Positions 1-55,413 of a stretch of 64,000 bases of DNA are shown here, piece after piece. The translations under genes were made by a program, and so were the position numbers. How positions within the stretch are numbered: the first letter of the stretch is position 1; each line of letters opens with the position of its first letter. The stretch covers positions 3,199,044 through 3,263,043 of the forward strand of contig NC_061076.1 of assembly GCF_021917145.1 (NCBI RefSeq). Direction: 5' to 3'. The notes below the pieces were generated by a model. The model worked only from the letters and a program-made list of their open reading frames with translations, had not been told where the DNA came from and did no database searches. This stretch comes from Hypomesus transpacificus (Eukaryota; Chordata; Actinopteri; Osmeriformes; Osmeridae).

Positions 1-2990
1 ATAATTGAATTTGATGCAGGGGATGATGATTTATATTCTGTATGTCAGAATCCTTTACATAAAACGCAATTTTCATAGAAAATTTTATTTATTATGCCGT
101 TCAAATTGACTCATGAGAAAAGCCCACAATGTTGCAGCTGCAAAGACGGGTCACACATCTCCACAAGCCCTGCCAGACCAAGACCTTGGTCCCCCCCAGT
201 CCTCCCAAGGCTCTACAGTAGTTCAGCACTGAAAGACAGAGAAGAAACAGGATGTCCCCAGTATTTCAGGGTAAAGAATGCGTGGCCAAGCGGTCATCTA
301 TTCAAGGGTAAGGAAGGGACATTTCCCACGACACAAACTCCAGCATTTCCTGGAATGCTGGGACTTTTGTACACAAACTGGACCTGAGGAATGTCAAACT
401 GCCGAGTCCAGTGAGTTCTGGCTGACGCAGATTCTGTCCTCCTGCAGAGACTGGACCCTGAGTCCCAGGCAGCATCCATACATCATCCTGCCTGCCTGCA
501 CCATGGCTCTCTGGGAAAATCTACATTCATGAAATATCAGCATTGACAGAGGCTGGGCGACCTATGACTTTACCCCGAGGTGGATGTTTCACCACCAGTC
601 TTCCTCTCTGGGGTCTCCCGCCAAGTTTTTCAAACTGACTGTTGAATATGTTTGAACCCTATAGGCTTGCTGCTGTACACATTTTTCGTTGTGTTTGAAA
701 TCACACAGCAATGAGATGACTTGAATTCTACACTGAAAACTAGTCTAGAAATGTGCTGATTGAGCTTCAGTGAGAGTCTGTTAAAAACAGACCATTCTTT
801 CCACACTCCTTCTTCTGTTTCGGTCTTGATGACTTTACCAGGCAGGAGTGAAAGCTGCTCCTTCAGTGTCAGTTTGGCAAAAATGCAACCTGCATTTCTC
901 AACCATCTCTCTCTGTGTCATCTCCTCCCAGTGTTGCCAGAACGGAACTGTTTCTCCTCTCATCTGCGTGTGGTTTCATAAGCAGATAAGGAAAGTTATG
1001 AACCGTTTGTTTCAGGTTTTTACCAGTCTAGATTCAATTCTCGAGAAGGGGGAATTCTTTCAGTCTCTCACCCCAGTCCCAGTCATCCTGTATGGCTGAT
1101 TGGTTTTACAGAACAGGGAAATTCCTTCTATTTTTACCTCACATCCCTCTACCATTGACTCCAAAAACCTCCCTGCATCAGATGGATAGACATGTCTTCA
1201 TATACTTAATACTCGCGATCAGTCTTGTAGTTGCGATAATTGTATAGCTGTACTGTTTAAGGAGTACAAGTTCTCTTTCATAAAAGACAGAACCAGCCAC
1301 AAAGCCTGACTACATAAAGTAAAATTCCGAAAGAAAATCCGGATGGAACCCAGACAGACACAGAATTTAATCAGCCAGGAGGGAGACAGAAAAAGGTCAC
1401 AGATACTGGGGCAGCAACTCAATCCCCCATGCCCCCACAGAGCTAGACGCTACGTCTGAGAGATCGGATTCACCAGGTCCACACCAGAACACAGGAGCAG
1501 GGCTCCAACACAGGCAACCCAAACCAGGACGAGGAGAAAAAGAGGAATCTACGGATCACAGCTGTGAAGCTTGAGAGGAATGTTGAAGTCATACACATGT
1601 CATCTCACTTGCTTGCCTATTACTAAAGCACATGGTTACTTTGAGACTCTCATGGGTCTTCTAATAGTGCGATGACACAGGTGACGGAAGCAGGGTTCTG
1701 ATGGTTACAAGTCCTCTCGAACCAAAAGTAGTAACTGGCGATGGTCTAAAAATACTCTCTATTCATCCTGACCCTGTATTTGATCTTGAACTTGTGGTGT
1801 GGTACTGCCAGCATCTCCATTGTTTAGGAAAGATTGGGTTCCAGATAGAATCACATGCATGCATGTGATCCACCAGAGTTAACAGAGCCCTTATTTGAAA
1901 GGAGAAGCCCTCACCAAACAAGCCCCCATCTCCTTCCTCCTTCCCAGGCCTCAAGGGCAAACACAAACAAACAAACAAACAGCTACCTCCTTTCACCCTT
2001 TCACAATGACATGAACCATAAATGGTCACTTAGTCACCATCTGAGTGGGTGTGAAGACTATGTCTTCCATCTATCGAATTCTATCAAACAGTGTTGTTGA
2101 AAGGGTTTGCTTGGGGTTACTTTTGGTGCCGCTGGAAGTAGTTTAAATCTTGTCATCTAAGATGTCCAGACTGCACATGCACTACACACATCATGTATTT
2201 GAAAGGTCTTGCTACGTAATCTTCTTCGAATCTGGACCAGCTTTGAGCCTGTGAATGTCTTTTCTGAAGCTTTGCAGTGTCCTCACATGCTCCTTCACAG
2301 AATGCGACAACAAAAAGCTCTGCGTGCGAACTCATGGCCGCACCAGGTACATTGTGCCATTTCAGTTTCACCACATTAACCAGCACACGCTTGCAGCCGT
2401 TTCATTTCTGCTCATCACTCTCACATAGGACATCCTGCTGTGCTTCTGCAAGGTTACTGACTAGAACCAGTCAGTGACTCATTTTGAATGCAGTGCATTC
2501 AGGCAGTCAGATACTGGCAGTGAGACCACAGTGTCAGATGTTCTGACCATACTATTCTGGTTTTTCAAGGAAGTTGTGCATTTTTCAATGACATCCCCCT
2601 ATGACTTAACCAAACCCCTATGACTTAACCAAAACCTAAACTGCCCAAAAGCTTACCTAGAAGCTCACATACGTAACAGACACCTGCTCCATATTTGGTC
2701 CCGGCAGCATCCGACTGCTCCTGCTCTTTTTAAGGTGTGCTCAGAACACAGCGTGACTCCTCAGAAGCTTCAACAGGACACAAGGCCTGCCTGTTGTCTC
2801 TGAAGCATCCAGGAACATTTCTGGTGCTGCAGGTCTCACACACAAGTAGGACTCCATCCCTCATCTCTTTCTCTCTCCCTCTTTCTCGCCCTCTCTTTCT
2901 CTCCACGTATTTGGCTTTGAAAGGATCCGTTTTTTTATGGTATGTGTCATGCCTCCCCCCCATCTTTCTCCTCCACCTCTACGCTACAAT
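1..2990. other. Intergenic DNA without a recognisable gene
   Basis: Only short, unrelated reading frames occur on either strand, with no splice-linked series and no family motif. Minor structure is visible: a roughly 20-bp direct duplication (CCCTATGACTTAACCAAA type) at about 2595-2635, an (ACAA)n-like run near 1963-1980, and a pyrimidine-rich stretch at about 2865-2905. I see nothing else to annotate. Confidence 0.6.
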
Positions 2991-2997
2991 ATTGGGG

Positions 2998-3988
2998 CCT
3001 GTGCAGACCTGGTCCTGTGTGGACCTGGTCCTGTGTGGACCTGGTCCTGTGTAGACCTGGTCCTGTGTGGACCTGGTCCTGTGTTGACCTGGTCCTGTGT
3101 AGACCTGGTCCTGTGTGGACCTGAGCCTGTGTAGACCTGGTCCTGTGTAGACCTGGGCCTGTGTAAACCTGGGCCTGTGTTGACCTGGGCCTGTGTAGAC
3201 CTGGTCCTGTGTAGACCTGGGCCTGTGTAAACCTGGGCCTGTGTTGACCTGGGCCTGTGCAGACCTGGTCCTGTGTGGACCTGGTCCTGTGTGGACCTGA
3301 GCCTGTGTAGACCTGGTCCTGTGTAGACCTGGGCCTGTGTAAACCTGGGCCTGTGTTGACCTGGGCCTGTGCAGACCTGGTCCTGTGTGGACCTGGTCCT
3401 GTGTGGACCTGAGCCTGTGTAGACCTGGTCCTGTGTAGACCTGGGCCTGTGTTGACCTGGGCCTGTGTAGACCTGGTCCTGTGTTGACCTGGTCCTGTGT
3501 GGACCTGAGCCTGTGTAGACCTGGTCCTGTGTAGACCTGGGCCTGTGTTGACCTGGTCCTGTGTAGACCTGGTCCTGTGTAGACCTGGGCCTGTGTTGAC
3601 CTGGGCCTGTGTTGACCTGGTCCTGTGTTGACCTGGGCCTGTGTAGACCTGGGCCTGTGTAGACCTGGTCCTGTGTAGACCTGGGCCTGTATAGACCTGG
3701 GCCTGTGTTGACCTGGTCCTGTGTAGACCTGGTCCTGTGTAGACCTGGGCCTGTGTAAACCTGGGCCTGTGTCGACCTGGGCCTGTGTAGACCTGGTCCT
3801 GTGTTGACCTGGTCCTGTGTTGACCTGGTCCTGTGTAGACCTGGGCCTGTGTAGACCTGGGCCTGTGTTGACCTGGGCCTGTGTTGACCTGGTCCTGTGT
3901 TGACCTGGGCCTGTGTAGACCTGGGCCTGTGTAAACCTGGTCCTGTGTAGACCTGGGCCTGTGTAGACCTGGTCCTGTGTAGACCTGG
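2998..3988. repeat. 16-bp minisatellite, about 60 copies
   Basis: The array repeats the unit GACCTGGTCCTGTGTA with a 16-bp period. Variants sit at a few fixed positions (GGTCC/GGGCC/GAGCC and GTGTA/GTGTG/GTGTT). Sixteen is not divisible by three, so each frame reads three units as a 16-residue peptide repeat. The minus-strand unit has no stop in any phase, which produces a long open frame that I treat as spurious. Higher-order structure is visible: a block of several variant units beginning near 3120 recurs near 3300 and near 3410. Expect length polymorphism and possible assembly collapse. Confidence 0.95.
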
Positions 3989-3989
3989 T

Positions 3990-4500
3990 TCACTGGTGTT
4001 TGGTGTGAAGGAGAAAACACATACATCTCAGGAGATGTGATGAGTGTACCAGATGAACACCAGCTAACTACATGCACACATCCTCTCATGTTTACACAAC
4101 CAGTACACACAGTACATAGACAGGCACTCAGTCATGATAAACCTCAACACATACATACATTCACCTGATCATGCAACACATCCGAATATTTTATACTCAT
4201 GACCACTATCTGCAAAAAGATACATCCTCATTCGAATAGTCTGTGGTCTAAGAGTTAGTTAGTTACTGATTGTGATAATTATGTGGACATTCTGCACAAC
4301 AGTTGTTGAACCTGGCGGTAGTACAGTTGTGGTCCATTATAGAGCTGCTGAAGGACTGCTCTTATCTGTCCCATGGAGCTGCAGCCAACAGCCATGCTGA
4401 TGGGATCTCAAGGGGAGGAACACAACAAAATTACAGGAAATTCCCTCTTGGTTGGCTCCCACCAACACAAAGAATGCCTTTTTAAAATCAGGCTATTTCC
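3990..4500. other. Intergenic spacer between minisatellite and GA-rich arrays
   Basis: Unique-looking AT-rich DNA with no reading frame that resembles a protein family. Nothing supportable is seen. Confidence 0.5.
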
Positions 4501-14658: not shown

Positions 14659-15488
14659 ATGAAGGGGATAACATTCCTATTGCTGGCACTTAGCTGCAGT
14701 TTGATCCAGGCTCAGATGGGACAGCATAACTATCCTGACAACTGCAATCTGATAAAAGACCTGGCAGCTACAGTTGAGAAACTGTCCACCGTGACGGAGA
14801 AGATGGGGCAGATGGAGACCAGGCTGCAGACGACGGAAAGAGAGTTGGAGGAGCTGAAGAAAGTGACTTTGAAGTGAGTCACTTTTCTGTTATGAAGAAT
14901 GACAAATCCTAGACGGAGCTTCCGTTGTGATATTTTGAGACAGAACAAAATAATTGAGATACTCTTCTTCCCTCCTGTATTTGTCAGGCAAGCCTCAGAT
15001 AGCTTTCTCAGCCACACTCAGGGAATCAGGCAGTGGTAACACTGGACCCTTCAATGTTGACAAACCTCTGCAGTACAAGAATGTCTACTCAAACGTGGGC
15101 AACAGCTACAACCCTGCTACAGGTGCTTTGTTATGTTCTAGATTCACACATGAGTGTATACGTGTTTAAGTGCAGGTGTGACACCTCTGTTATGTTTGAA
15201 GGTATCTTCACAGCCAGTGTGAAGGGGATGTACTACTTCCGGTTTTCCATGATGAACAACCTGAGTGCCACGCCTAACTCTGTGGTGTCCCTGATGAAAA
15301 ATGACCAGAGGCTGGCATCTGTGTGGGACACCTCAGGGACTGATGCCAATGATATTGGCAGCAACGCAGCAGTCATTCCTCTGGAGGTGGGGGACAATGT
15401 TTACATCAAACTGGTCGCCAACAGACTCATCTATGATGATGTTATGAACTACAACACCTTCAGTGGCTTCCTGCTCTTTAATATGTAA
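14659..15488 (+). pseudogene. C1q-domain protein gene, left copy, frame broken at exon 1 donor
   Basis: Same structure as the intact copy at 21605-22443: a secretory signal, a short coiled coil and a C-terminal C1q head. Blocks are 14659-14873, 14988-15122 and 15202-15488. The first GT donor (at 14874) lies one base later than in the intact copy. The join therefore has phase 2 instead of 1 and shifts exon 2 out of frame to an early stop; unspliced, exon 1 stops at TGA 14875. I found no alternative AG in exon 2 that restores the frame. The TATA box of the other copy is TGATAAA here (14583-14589). Exons 2 and 3 remain open and well conserved, so decay is recent, or the gene uses a first exon or splice site I cannot see. 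A sequencing error at one base would also explain it. Confidence 0.65.
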
Positions 15489-16135: not shown

Positions 16136-16319
16136 GGACAGGAGAGAGAGAGAGCGCGAAAGAGAGAGCGTAAGAGAACATGAAGATATATTAATAGGCT
16201 CCTGTTCAGCTGAAAACAGCACACATGAGCTGTGCAAGTCTGACTTCTAAAATGTTTTGTAACATACCACACAAGTGCATGTAGGCAGACTCCTACAGAA
16301 CATCAGAGATCATAATGAA

Positions 16320-16631
16320 TCTTTGGGCTCACCTTTCAGCTCCATGTCGACCTCTTTAGACTCCGGGCTGGGCTCGCTCACTCCTACCCTGTTATAAGCT
16401 CTCACACGGAAGCAGTACTGCGTCTGGGGCTGCAGGCCGGAGCGTACCCTGTACGAGGTGCTCTTCCACTGGGCTGTAAGCTCACTCCAATCCCCAGGCT
16501 CTGTCGGGCCTTTTGTCCTCACTTCCACCACGTAGCCCAGGACAGCGCTGCCTCCGTCGTAGCAGGGCCCAGACCAGGACAGAACCAGACTGCTGGCAGA
16601 GAGGAGGGAGACCACTGGGCTGGAGGATTGG
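16320..16631 (-). pseudogene. Relic of the mylk fibronectin type III exon
   Basis: Minus-strand open frame with a near-complete FN3 domain (LVLSWSGPCYDGGSAVLGY, then YCFRVRAYNRVGVSEPSPE). It differs from the functional exon (25601-25912) at only about two positions, one of them Trp for Cys. The exon's 5' end, including its splice acceptor and first residues (DRPQPP), was removed by the deletion at about 16632. The donor side (AAAG|GTGAGC) survives. With no acceptor and no partner exons it cannot be a functional part of mylk. Confidence 0.85.
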
Positions 16632-17249
16632 GGTGAATGCAGGACACACCTCAGTGTTCTGATGGGGTTTAACGTTGTGTAGGTACCTGCGTTTGCAGGG
16701 AAAGATGTGCGTGTGTATATTTTCTCCTCTCTCCTGTTAGACAGCCCTTATTCATCTGGATGGTGTATCAACTGTAAATACAAGCAGGATTTCTTTACAA
16801 AACACACATGAACTACAGTACAGCATGAGGATTCAACTGTTAAAACGTTCCCCTGCAAATGCCTACACAACATGATGCAGCTCATTCCCTGCTCCAGCAG
16901 CACACCATCTGATAAACTGTAAGTTACAAAACACATATGGACTATTGCGAATATAAAGAGATCCTTTGACGTGCAGTTTCATAGATGTTCAACAAATATC
17001 AGCTTACCCAACATTTCCCTTTCAACACAAAGAAACATGCAAACACACACACACAAACCAGACAAGTCACATTCTCTTAACTATGAAATTCAATTACAGA
17101 ATTAGATAACCCCATTTATGAGCACAAGTCAGAGGCACAGGTCCATATTCAAATACCGCAGTTATGGAGGTCCTCATATGGGAATCTTTAGCTACAAATG
17201 CCTTTCTGGCAAGTTCTTACCCGCCACATAGTCTGCCCCTCTCAGGGGT

Positions 17250-21604: not shown

Positions 21605-22443
21605 ATGAATGGGATAACATTCCTGCTGCTGGCACTTAGCTGCCGTTTGACCCAGGCTGAGGTGGGACACCCAGCTACCTATCCTGACAACTGCAATCTG
21701 ATAAAAGACCTGGCAGCTACAGTTGAGAAACTGTCCACCATGACGGAGAAGATGGGGCTGATGGAGACCAGGCTGCAGACGACGGAAAGAGAGTTGGAGG
21801 AGCTGAAGAAAGTGACTTCGGGTGAGACAATGACCACTTTTCTGTTATGAAGAATGACAAATCCTAGACTGAGCTTTGGTTGTGATATTTTGAGACAGAA
21901 CAAAATCATCGAGATGCTATTCTTCCCTCCTGTGTTTGTCAGGCAAGCCTCAGGTAGCTTTCTCAGCCACACTCAGAGAATCAGGCAATGGTAACACTGG
22001 ACCCTTCAATGTTGACACACCTCTGCAGTACAAGAATGTCTACTCAAACGTGGGCAACTGCTACAACCCTGCTACAGGTGCTTTGTTATGTTCTAGATTC
22101 ACACATGAGTGTATACGTGTTTAAGTGCAGGTGTGACATCTCTGTTATGTTTGAAGGTATCTTCACAGCCAGTGTGAAGGGGATGTACTACTTCCGGTTT
22201 TCCATGATGAACAACCTGAGTCCGACGCCTAACTCTGTGGTGTCCCTGATGAAAAATGACCAGAGGCTGGCATCTGTGTGGGACACCACAGGGTCTGATT
22301 CCAATGATATTGGCAGCAACGCAGCAGTCATTCCTCTGGAGGTGGGGGACAATGTTTTCATCAGACTGGTCGCCAACAGACTCATCTATGATGATGCTAT
22401 GAACTACAACACCTTCAGTGGCTTCCTGCTCTTTAACATGTAA
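21605..22443 (+). CDS. Secreted C1q-domain protein (complement C1q-like / cerebellin-like)
   Basis: Three exons, 21605-21821, 21943-22077 and 22157-22443, join in frame to 639 nt, 212 aa. Residues 1-18 are a signal peptide ([13 protein letters not shown], then an Ala-rich cleavage region). Residues about 35-72 form a heptad-like coiled coil ([11 protein letters not shown] and onward) that probably drives trimerisation. Residues about 75-212 are the C1q/TNF-like jelly-roll head. Its hallmarks are VAFSATL near the start, a [15 protein letters not shown] block and the C-terminal [10 protein letters not shown]. There is no collagen-like Gly-X-Y region, so it belongs to the short C1q-like proteins abundant in fish, several linked to innate immunity. 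It has a TATA box and an AATAAA at 22654-22659. It is the intact member of a tandem pair and converges on mylk 400 bp away. The exact orthologue is unclear. Confidence 0.88.
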
Positions 22444-22840: not shown

Positions 22841-31093
<8,253 letters not shown>

Positions 31094-40396: not shown

Positions 40397-43300
40397 CAAA
40401 CGTCTGTGTGTGTGTGTTTGCTTACTCCAAGCCTCATCCACCCATCTTGCCGAAACCAGCCTTGAGTGGCCTGTGTGCGCAGCAGGCAATAAAAGCCCAG
40501 ACAAATGGTGTGCTTGAGGCGTGAGACTGAACCTTGGAGGGGGAGGAGGTGGACTCAGGCCACTCCACAGCTGTTTGCTTCTGTTCTCCTCCTGTTGCTG
40601 TTCAAACCCCTCTGATCGACGCAAATGGTTCAAAGAGGGACAGGGGCGGTAGGATAGCTCGGCAGAAATGTGAATGGAAAAATGTGTCAATGGAAAACGG
40701 TCCATTTGTACATTTGATGAATGCTAGTCCCCCCGAATGTCTCAAACAAACCGTTTCAGTGAAATCAGCTTTAGAGAGTGGATTTAAGATGGGTTTTTTT
40801 GTCCTTCACTGGTGTCCATCCAAGGAATCGGTAATCTTTGATCTTGATTTGTTATGGCAACCAGGCCGGGGGGGTGGGCGTCTGTATCAAAGGATATGGA
40901 CATGTGGATTTTAGCCGCCTCTCTCCTGCCAAGTCTTCCTGTTCTTGAGGCAGGTATGAGGAAAGGGAACACATAGGATGTCTGTGGCTGTAAGATTTCA
41001 AGGATGGTGAGATTCAGAGGTGGTGTGTGCTCTGGACAAACTCAACTGCCTTTCATTTCGTAAAACGAATATGTGTACGTGAGCAGAAGCGCTCAAAGCA
41101 TGATCTGATCTTGTCTTTGAGACTCCACCAGGGCGTGATCACTAACAGATTTAGGTCGATCTTTCTTTCTTTCTCCATCTGTTCCTTTGATCCAGTACTT
41201 TTCTTATCCGCAAAACATTTTTGCAGTCCTTGATTTTCCATTGAGACATAAAGCAACAATGTTTTTTTAACTAAAATCAACATTTGTGTTTGAAACTTTG
41301 GACCTCACAGCCTCTCCATAGGTATGAACAATAGGTCCTCACAAACAGCCTGGAACAGTAAAAAAAACACGAGCCATCTTCTTGACACTCTCCGAGGGCC
41401 TGTTACCATCAAGGTGAGATCACATTGTCAACATGCTGAAGAGCATTCTTCCTGCCTCCTTCTCTGCCTGTCCCTTCTTGCCCTCGAGGAGAAAACGAGG
41501 GTGCATGTTACACTTAAACCTGAGATCAGCATAGAGAAGGAAATCAAAACTGCTTTCGTTCTCAGGCTGTGTTGGAAAACTCAGTCAGTGGCGTTGACAA
41601 GCTGTAAGTGTCTGACCCACATAGATAGTCCTCCTGTTGGTCATGTAATCTGCTCAGAGTGATACCTTTGTTGTCTCAGCTTGATAGGTTGTAAAAGAGT
41701 GTGGGATGGTGAATTGAAGGCTTTTGACATTCCTCTACATATTAAGCCTGTCAGGGGTAAATCCATTGTAAAGCTTATGCAGTTTTCCTGCTGGGTCACA
41801 CAAGTCAGGCTTCAACTTCCTGACCAGAGGATATCAAGTGAAAACGGCTTTGCTGGTTACATTTAAAACACTGAAAAGTGAATCTGAGCATCTGGTACAA
41901 TTTAGTTTTCAGGGTCTGAAAGCCAAGGGTTTTGTGTTAGGATTCAAAGTATGGCAGCAACATCTTTCCTCGTCCTGATTCTCCTTTTCTTTTCTTCTTT
42001 TTGTTTTTCTTGGGAGAAAGAACGAAGCACACCAATTAAACAGAATTTTCCAAAACACCTCCCAAACCCCTTCCTACCTCTATAACAATCTCCCCACCAT
42101 GAGCACCCCACCCACATCCCCCTTCCTTTCCCTCTCCTTGCTCACTCGCCTCCCCGTGCTTCGGTGAAAGACCAAACAAGTCAGCCATTAAGTTGAGTGA
42201 AGCGCAGGAAGCGGGCCTTCAGGGCAGGCGGCCCTGTTTATAAGGAGCTAGTCAGGTTTCAGCGGCCCTTTGAAGGGAGCAGCACATAGGAGACTGTCTG
42301 TCACTGGGCCAAAGCCCGGCACTGCTCCACTGACTCACTGCATTCCCCCCATTCATTTGAGCGGAGAGGGGAAGAGAGGTGGATCAGGGTAGAGAAAGAG
42401 AGATGGGGGTGTGTGTGTGTGTGGGGGGGTAAAGGCACAGGAGGTACAGAGGGGTAGGCTAGAAGAAGGGCAGGTTAATGTATGCCCTTTCACGCCAACT
42501 TCTTGAGAAAAGAAAGAAAGCTCTTGGTTTCTTCATGAAATCCTAAATCTGAGTTGTCTCTTGTTGCAACCTATCTCCTTAGCTAGCCCCCATCAACACA
42601 CAAATAATAACTTTCCTATCTTTTCTCTTCGGGCAATAGATTTGTGGTTCACCTTCTGCACCAAGGTAAAGTCAAGCCTCTCCTAAGAATATGATTAATG
42701 AGCAATTTCTTGCACAGTTTAAACCACTTGTAGTGGAGCAGCAGTGCATTACTGTGTGCTTGTGAAGTATGACCTGCAGAACTGGAGGTGTTAAAGACCT
42801 AGGGAGTATCACATTCTCCAACACCACATTTATTTCATTACATCATCTTAGAGGTGGTTCACTTTCAGTCATTCAGTCACTGGGGGGCATCCAGTGTCAT
42901 ACAGTGCAGTCTTTACTTTGGAAAGATAAAATACTAACTTTGTGTGTTTTACCTCACTGTTTATGTAGGGATGAATAACCTCCCATAAGAACTCGGAGAC
43001 ACAAAAAACCAAGTCTCATCATTTCTTTCATGGTGGCTTGAAAGTTAATATGCCTTCTAAGGGTCTATCGTTCCTGCTATCCATGTTAGCTCATGCCCAG
43101 AGCTATGGGTAACACATTTCCATGGCAGTCGCCTCCCAGTCTGAAAGCTAACAGATGTTAAGGTATGACTCAAATGTCAACACATTGGCATGGTTAACAG
43201 GACTGTGAACCGGACCATCAGACAGGAAAGATACAGGCTGATAGGGCCAGATTGAGAAAGTGCATGGGCAGAACCAAGTTAGACATAGATAACCAGCCAG

Positions 43301-48202: not shown

Positions 48203-52145
<3,943 letters not shown>

Positions 52146-53777: not shown

Positions 53778-55413
53778 TTATCTTTTTCGTTCCCCTTTCT
53801 GCGTTCGTTTCTTTTCCTTGTCTTTCCTTTCCTGCTTGGACAGCTTTTCCTTCTCTCGCTGCATCTTGTCCTGTTCCTTCTTCTTCTGGGAGTCGTCTCT
53901 TGCCTGGTCGCGCTGCTGCTTCTTCCGGTTCAGGACCTCCTCCACGTTGGTGTTCTTGAACAGGGCTGAGGTTCTCGGTCAAGGAGACTCGCGTCTAAAC
54001 CCCGCCACACGTCCGACAACGAACAGGAACCATGACACACTTTTTCTATTCAGCTACGTTCAGCCATATTCTAGTTTCCAGGTAGGATACACAATTACGA
54101 AGGACATGAGTCGGAACTCACATTCTGATGAGTCAGAGTACAAAGAAGGAATGGGAAAGGATACATTTATCACCACTTGGTACACAAGCTCCACCTGTTT
54201 CCTCTTCTTCAGCTTCAGTGGTCTTGTTAAGGAAATTGACACTGGTTCTCAAGAAGATTACACAACAAGATGTTGAGTTAACTGTAAAATACCTGTAAGT
54301 AAGGTTAAAACAACAGCCTTTGATTAATAGGCTGGCACAGCATTGTCAGTGTGCCACAAGTAATGTATCAGTCGAGAATAAGACATTCCGCATACCAAAT
54401 GTAATGTTATCAATTAAAACAGATTAACCAAACAAAGGATATTCTTCGTTGTCTGTAATATTGGCATATTGAGCCAATAGGGCCTCCTTCCTCTTCTTGG
54501 ACTCCTCAGACACCTCCTTCTGTTTCACAACAATCTGGGCCTGTTTCTCTATCATGCTGGCGATGGCCTGTACCTCAACTACAAATTCAGATTCAGAATT
54601 AGTGGTGGGGAAGGCCTGAAAGAGCTGAACTGTATGTATGTACTTTGTGTATTTATCTTCTTGATTACATTTACTATAGCTAATAAGTGATGCATTCCAA
54701 AGGTGTTCTTTAAAAACAATGAAACAGTTTCTTTTATACAGCATCATACCATCTACATTGCTTTTGGAGGTAGATCGGGCACAGCTCTCGGTCCACTGTC
54801 TAATGATCTCTCCACAGACGTTATCTAGTGAATCCTCGTCCTGTGGATGAGAGACAACCAACCTTATTTGAAACTTTTTTTAAACAACAGAAATTATATC
54901 CCCAAGAGAACAATTCCTAGTTTGCGTGTCTGTAATGACTGAGCAGAAACATTCGTCTAGTACTGACTACTGTCTAAAATTAGAAAGTGTACTAACAGAA
55001 CGCAGACTATAGACTGGAGAAGCTAGCAGTCAGCTTCCCAGAGGAGCGCTAAGTTTAGTTTTATACGGTGTCATTAACATGAATAGATTGTAGTAGCTAC
55101 AAAGACGCTGTATAACGAAGTTATTTAGATAACTTTACACGTGTTCGTAACAGTAAGTTACTGGCTAACTCATTTTAGCCAACATGTTATGGTGGTGAGA
55201 GATCGAGTGAGCATGGTGCCATGCCGATAGCGTATTCACCAAAAACGCAGATAGGATTCCTTGTAATGCATCTCCCTTCTCCTCATCAGTTTCATCTTCT
55301 TGCAAGACCCCTAAAATATACGCTCCATACACCTCGCGATCCACCTCCAACGAATCTAGTCGATCATTTAGCCAGCTTTCAAACTCCCCGGCGTCTGTCA
55401 CGGGCGCAGCCAT
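53778..55413 (-). CDS. ccdc43: Coiled-coil domain-containing protein 43
   Basis: Small conserved animal protein of unclear molecular role. Five exons: 55413-55240, 54840-54750, 54578-54443, 54217-54165 and 53965-53778; 642 nt, 213 aa (human about 224). Residues 1-58 hold the conserved N-terminal helical domain ([21 protein letters not shown], trimmed to ESWLNDRL...VYGAYILG). [17 protein letters not shown] is in exon 3, and a Lys/Glu/Arg-rich coiled coil ([11 protein letters not shown] and onward, ending KGERKR) in exon 5. I chose ATG 55413 because it gives the family start MAAP; an in-frame ATG ten codons upstream (55443) is possible. The last two introns show minor-spliceosome signals, and the conserved EDEAEEEE junction forms only when they are spliced that way. 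Confidence 0.95.
53966..54164 (-). other. U12-type GT-AG intron of ccdc43
   Basis: On the minus strand the intron begins GTATCCTTTC at 54164 (U12 GT-AG consensus). It carries a branch-site match CTCCTTGAC at 53986-53978 and ends CTCAG at 53966. There is no strong polypyrimidine tract before the AG, as expected for U12 introns. It joins GDK to SLFKNTN in frame. Length 199 bp, directly following the AT-AC intron across a 53-nt exon. Confidence 0.85.
54218..54442 (-). other. U12-type AT-AC intron of ccdc43
   Basis: On the minus strand the intron begins ATATCCTTTG at 54442, the U12 5' splice-site consensus. The exact branch-site consensus TTCCTTAAC lies at 54234-54226, and the intron ends in AC at 54219-54218. 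No suitable GT-AG pair joins these exons in the conserved frame. With AT-AC the junction codon becomes Asp and reads DNEDEAEEEE, matching the family's acidic stretch. Length 225 bp. Confidence 0.85.

Follow-up and report, generated by a model that had tools for sequence, protein, structure and literature searches.

Adjacent AT-AC and GT-AG introns, probably both of U12 type, flank a 53-nt exon of ccdc43 in Hypomesus transpacificus

Do two consecutive introns of one gene, with an exon of only 53 nt between them, both belong to the minor spliceosome while being of unlike subtype, and how unusual would such a pair be? The question is raised by ccdc43 of Hypomesus transpacificus, which lies on the minus strand of the window analyzed here (the whole stretch of 64,000 nucleotides from contig NC_061076.1; coordinates are positions in it unless stated otherwise). 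Its five exons (174, 91, 136, 53 and 188 nt) give a spliced product of 213 aa with intact start, stop and frame when intron 2 is taken as 54749-54579, so that the 213-aa protein proposed in an earlier note on this DNA was reproduced with introns 3 and 4 removed. The gene model comprises the following features.

55240..55413, minus strand: exon 1, coding from ATG (MAAP...), recovered by the own-genome protein search
54841..55239, minus strand: intron 1, U2-like GT-AG, 399 nt, phase 0
54750..54840, minus strand: exon 2
54579..54749, minus strand: intron 2, GT-AG (GTATGATGC), ends picked for 213 aa, other in-frame ends exist
54443..54578, minus strand: exon 3
54218..54442, minus strand: intron 3, putative U12-type AT-AC, 225 nt, phase 2
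54165..54217, minus strand: exon 4, 53 nt, split codons at its ends
53966..54164, minus strand: intron 4, putative U12-type GT-AG, 199 nt, phase 1, T as the exon base at -1
53778..53965, minus strand: exon 5 to the stop (...KGERKR*)

The interval 53966-54442 corresponds exactly to the outer limits of introns 3 and 4 with exon 4 inside. The ends of intron 2 are ambiguous, with 11 listed donor/acceptor choices that keep the frame open (200-240 aa), an ambiguity without consequence for introns 3 and 4.

The neighboring open reading frames match the Pfam families MEIOC and Frizzled, and human FZD2, MEIOC and CCDC43 are located together. Human CCDC43 is a protein of 224 aa encoded at 17q21.31, and the primers reported for its cloning encode a MAAPSEV start and an RGERKR-stop end (PMC12266347). 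The first four and the last five residues of the 213-aa product match these primer-encoded residues (MAAP..., ...KGERKR). The ends, the length and the two neighbors support the identification as ccdc43. Pfam searches with two models of the protein (213 and 223 aa) returned no CCDC43 family and a single chance match (E = 0.65, with the 213-aa model), and among solved structures there was a chance-level match to H2B only (E = 0.059). A paralog or second copy was considered and none was seen, all four protein matches in the genome being ccdc43 exons, with exon 4 too short to match alone. Relatives of exon 5 were sought in viral and prokaryote contigs, where 12 and 61 pattern matches, respectively, yielded none that was confirmed.

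The U12 signals described for the two introns in the earlier note are all present on the minus strand.

54434..54442, minus strand: intron 3 U12 5' splice site, ATATCCTTT, exact to RTATCCTTT
54226..54234, minus strand: intron 3 U12 branch site, TTCCTTAAC, exact to TTCCTTRAC
54156..54164, minus strand: intron 4 U12 5' splice site, GTATCCTTT, exact to RTATCCTTT
53978..53986, minus strand: intron 4 U12 branch site, CTCCTTGAC, one pyrimidine change from TTCCTTRAC

Intron 3 combines the ATATCCTTT donor and the TTCCTTAAC branch site with an AC end, intron 4 combines the GTATCCTTT donor and the CTCCTTGAC branch site with an AG end, and the exon between them (54217-54165) is indeed 53 nt. Exact donors and branch sites, together with AT-AC versus GT-AG ends, uphold the reading of both as U12-type introns of unlike subtype. 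The branch adenosine lies 9 nt from the last base of intron 3 (10 nt if the other A is used) and 13 nt from that of intron 4; the optimum is reported as 11-13 nt (PMC3584512), so intron 3 falls slightly below it. Phases 2 and 1 of introns 3 and 4 fit the reported bias of minor introns away from phase 0 (PMC10639083), and the T at position -1 of intron 4, the GT-AG member, agrees with a reported excess of U at -1 (PMC7367187). Compared with U12-type introns in general, the ccdc43 introns share the consensus 5' site, branch site, ends and non-phase-0 positions, likewise appear by eye to have no marked pyrimidine tract, and taken one at a time differ only in the slightly short branch-to-end distance of intron 3. 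Introns 3 and 4 are thus very probably strong, ordinary introns of U12 type, the first AT-AC and the second GT-AG, and the minor spliceosome would remove both. The RNA structure predicted for the 491-nt region is ordinary (z = -0.72; 27 of 100 shuffled sequences fold equally well).

Short motifs of this kind can occur by chance, and their expectation was estimated by first-order Markov (dinucleotide) simulation of the 64-kb window on both strands in 600 runs. Exact RTATCCTTT was found three times against 1.06 expected, two of the three being the donors of introns 3 and 4, and exact YTCCTTRAC was found twice against 2.9 expected, both times within these introns. Strict pairs, defined as an exact 5' site, an exact branch site and a matching end within about 400 nt, numbered two against 0.0017 expected per 64 kb (1 in 600 runs). 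Single motifs are at chance level, and it is the pairing of donor with branch site that stands above it. With one branch-site mismatch allowed and spans of up to 400 nt, 0.06 pairs were expected per window (100 runs). The loosest setting (one branch-site mismatch, up to 5 kb) gave 1.33 expected and six real pairs, which are introns 3 and 4 themselves plus four far ones; the intron 3 and intron 4 donors also have far one-mismatch partners, ending at 51781 and 51784. The third exact ATATCCTTT is at 40897 on the minus strand, where no gene was recognized and no exact branch site is near; this donor pairs only with one-mismatch branch sites, over spans of 1678 and 2758 nt.

Two other accounts of the locus were weighed against this reading. 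If the motif matches were fortuitous and the locus a decayed gene, the third RTATCCTTT would be a fitting illustration that single motifs can arise by chance. That account is at odds with the excess of strict pairs, with the intact start, stop and frame, and with a gene seen in one copy between recognizable neighbors, and we give it almost no weight. The other account is that exon 4 is not constitutive, either because the usual structure employs GT-AG sites or because an isoform that retains intron 3, ending in EYPLFG, is a regular product. GT-AG-only models were enumerated between 54486 and 53954, from the EALLAQY codons to the NTNVEE codons, with minimum lengths of 60 nt for introns and 9 nt for an inner exon. 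Frame-keeping solutions do exist on paper (2 with a single intron and 200 with two), and the frame of a retained intron 3 stays open for a few codons. Every one of these solutions starts at donor 54428 or 54433, which score -2.75 and -6.37 on a rough U2 matrix; the same matrix gives 0.8 and 2.29 for the donors of introns 1 and 2, and -5.02 and -2.99 for the U12 donors of introns 3 and 4 when these are scored as U2 donors. Since the first donor must be 54428 or 54433, all 202 solutions retain the EYP encoded by intron 3, and therefore none yields the EDEAEEEE junction. The GT-AG-only gene models were rejected for their very poor first donors. The isoform that retains intron 3, in turn, would lack the C-terminus, the last residues of which agree with those encoded by the human primers. 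A non-constitutive exon 4 in either form is accordingly quite improbable, if less remote than a decayed gene. Single-intron frame-keeping solutions of other types also exist (7 AT-AC and 3 GC-AG).

Removal of both introns as U12-type units is what gives the 213-aa product, and retention of either one, or of both, leads to an early stop. When intron 3 is retained, the stop follows NEEYPLFG after 139 aa and lies upstream of the intron 4 junction, which should make such a message susceptible to nonsense-mediated decay. When intron 4 is retained, the product has 161 aa and is without the basic C-terminus. Skipping of exon 4 shifts the frame, yet the frame stays open to 204 aa. By analogy with established U12 splicing, U11 would read the RTATCCTTT donor of each intron and U12 would pair with each branch site, leaving one adenosine bulged. 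If both introns are U12-type, the 53-nt exon is bounded by minor-spliceosome sites on both sides. Splicing in cells, decay of the message and dependence on the minor spliceosome are points that we infer from the DNA; on this footing, ccdc43 can reasonably be taken to be sensitive to minor-spliceosome activity, and gene finders can reasonably be expected to mis-annotate it, as the earlier note had proposed.

The genome itself was searched for the minor-spliceosome snRNAs with Rfam families at curated cut-offs (own assembly, 437 Mb, 376 contigs). U12 and U11 each gave one match over the cut-off (129 and 119 bits, respectively), and U4atac gave two (99 and 94 bits). U6atac was not found in the assembly by its family, a search that matched in no control genome either, nor by a motif search, in which one match with three mismatches was not judged real; U6atac may have been missed by a first look, may have diverged, or may be absent from the assembly. 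Around a single bulged A, nucleotides 17-24 of the U12 RNA (GTAAGGAA) pair with the intron 3 branch site at 8 of 8 positions. With the intron 4 branch site they form 7 of 8 pairs if the G beside the branch A is the base omitted; if the branch A is omitted instead, the best listed U12 register is elsewhere, at nt 34 (7 of 8). The count of pairs with U11 is 7 of 10 for introns 3 and 4, 7 of 10 for intron 2 and 6 of 10 for intron 1, and it is non-discriminating because the control intron 2 equals introns 3 and 4.

To gauge how unusual the pair is within the genome, TCCTTRAC followed after a gap of 45-137 nt by RTATCCTTT was searched genome-wide, with the same pattern read backwards as the control. 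There were 29 matches (13 + 7 + 9) against 19 in the control (3 + 7 + 9), and most of the 29 are therefore probably due to chance; four of them (L005, L013, L016 and L017) are copies of one repeat. Under a strict test, which overlooks pairs whose motifs are imperfect or whose introns are longer than 1.5 kb, ccdc43 (L009) is the only one of the 29 to be accompanied, within 1.5 kb on each side, by a U12-like donor upstream as well as a U12-like branch site downstream. At another match, L010 (G000:C17:5896194-5896272), inspection by eye found a coding-looking stretch, ISALNIVGDLLRKVG, after a U12-like branch site, TTCCTTGAC, which is followed 13 nt later by an AG, and GTATCCCTC lies 400 nt upstream. 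L010 is possibly another U12 intron in the same genome.

In other genomes, 50 human and 50 mouse genes are reported to have two minor introns, and three genes in each species to have three (PMC6717393); a second source likewise gives about 50 human genes with two (PMC3584512). Most SCN and CACN1 channel genes of mammals are also described as having two minor introns (PMC2831892), and in each of 21 genomes tested the clustering of minor introns in genes was reported to be non-random (PMC7367187). Like the genes of PMC6717393, ccdc43 has two minor introns per gene; its pair is, in addition, adjacent, of unlike subtype and 53 nt apart. Zebrafish minor introns are given as 75% GT-AG and 22% AT-AC (PMC7367187), so that independent subtypes would give a mixed share of 2 x 0.75 x 0.22 = 33% among pairs. 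MORC3 offers a likeness in subtype: retention of AT-AC and GT-AG introns of this gene is reported in CENATAC-depleted and ZRSR2-mutant cells (PMC8280824), and it thus apparently has both subtypes in one gene, as ccdc43 does. The earlier note had regarded adjacent minor introns of mixed type across a tiny exon as rarer still than minor introns themselves. This holds insofar as such pairing is not common, but two minor introns per gene define an established class and about a third of pairs would be mixed by chance. The ccdc43 pair illustrates known biology well and is not a new kind of thing. A literature search that was far from exhaustive turned up no paper describing a mixed neighboring pair of minor introns. 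Among the papers searched, none tied CCDC43 to minor introns, U12 or the minor spliceosome; CCDC43 is absent from the main text of PMC8280824 and from PMC12332006 (rnpc3).

Whether the unlike subtypes do anything for the gene can be considered on the same data. They could have been kept as a lock against a splice between the donor of intron 3 and the acceptor of intron 4, sparing the 53-nt exon, which may be too small to be well defined as an exon; this would add to the reading as U12-type introns rather than replace it. Skipping of exon 4 would need an AT-AG pairing, which, like GT-AC, is reported to be disfavored (PMC3584512). In addition, the skipped frame is open to 204 aa, and its product would not be removed via an early stop. 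The arrangement in the sequence thus suggests that the unlike subtypes may protect the small exon. Against this, chance alone would make about one pair in three mixed, AT-AG is disfavored rather than excluded, and a single gene is unable to show selection. We regard a selected lock as a doubtful addition, though one with better prospects than either of the two competing accounts of the locus. If it were true, mixed subtypes should make up more than one third of adjacent minor-intron pairs, chiefly around short exons, and single-subtype versions of both introns would release skipping into the open alternative frame. The gene also offers a way to test whether unlike subtypes curb exon skipping where two minor introns are neighbors.

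An AT-AC and a GT-AG intron of similar length, side by side in the same gene and cell, would also constitute a natural internal control for subtype-specific factors, provided that the ccdc43 introns behave like others. In human cells, CENATAC depletion is reported to affect 92% of A-type and 24% of G-type minor introns (PMC8280824). Given this selectivity, loss of CENATAC is predicted to retain intron 3 far more than intron 4, whereas loss of RNPC3 or ZRSR2 is predicted to affect both.

Several other features were noted elsewhere in the window. Two very similar C1q-like open reading frames lie on the plus strand (15003-15488 and 21958-22443), and two very similar fibronectin-III stretches lie on the minus strand (16310-16747 and 25578-25973), the first of each pair having been checked against Pfam. 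The two sets of duplicates suggest a tandem duplication inside the window. A long minisatellite-like array occupies 2947-4131, where the translations of three minus-strand frames consist of HRPRSTQAQVYTGPGL-type repeats.
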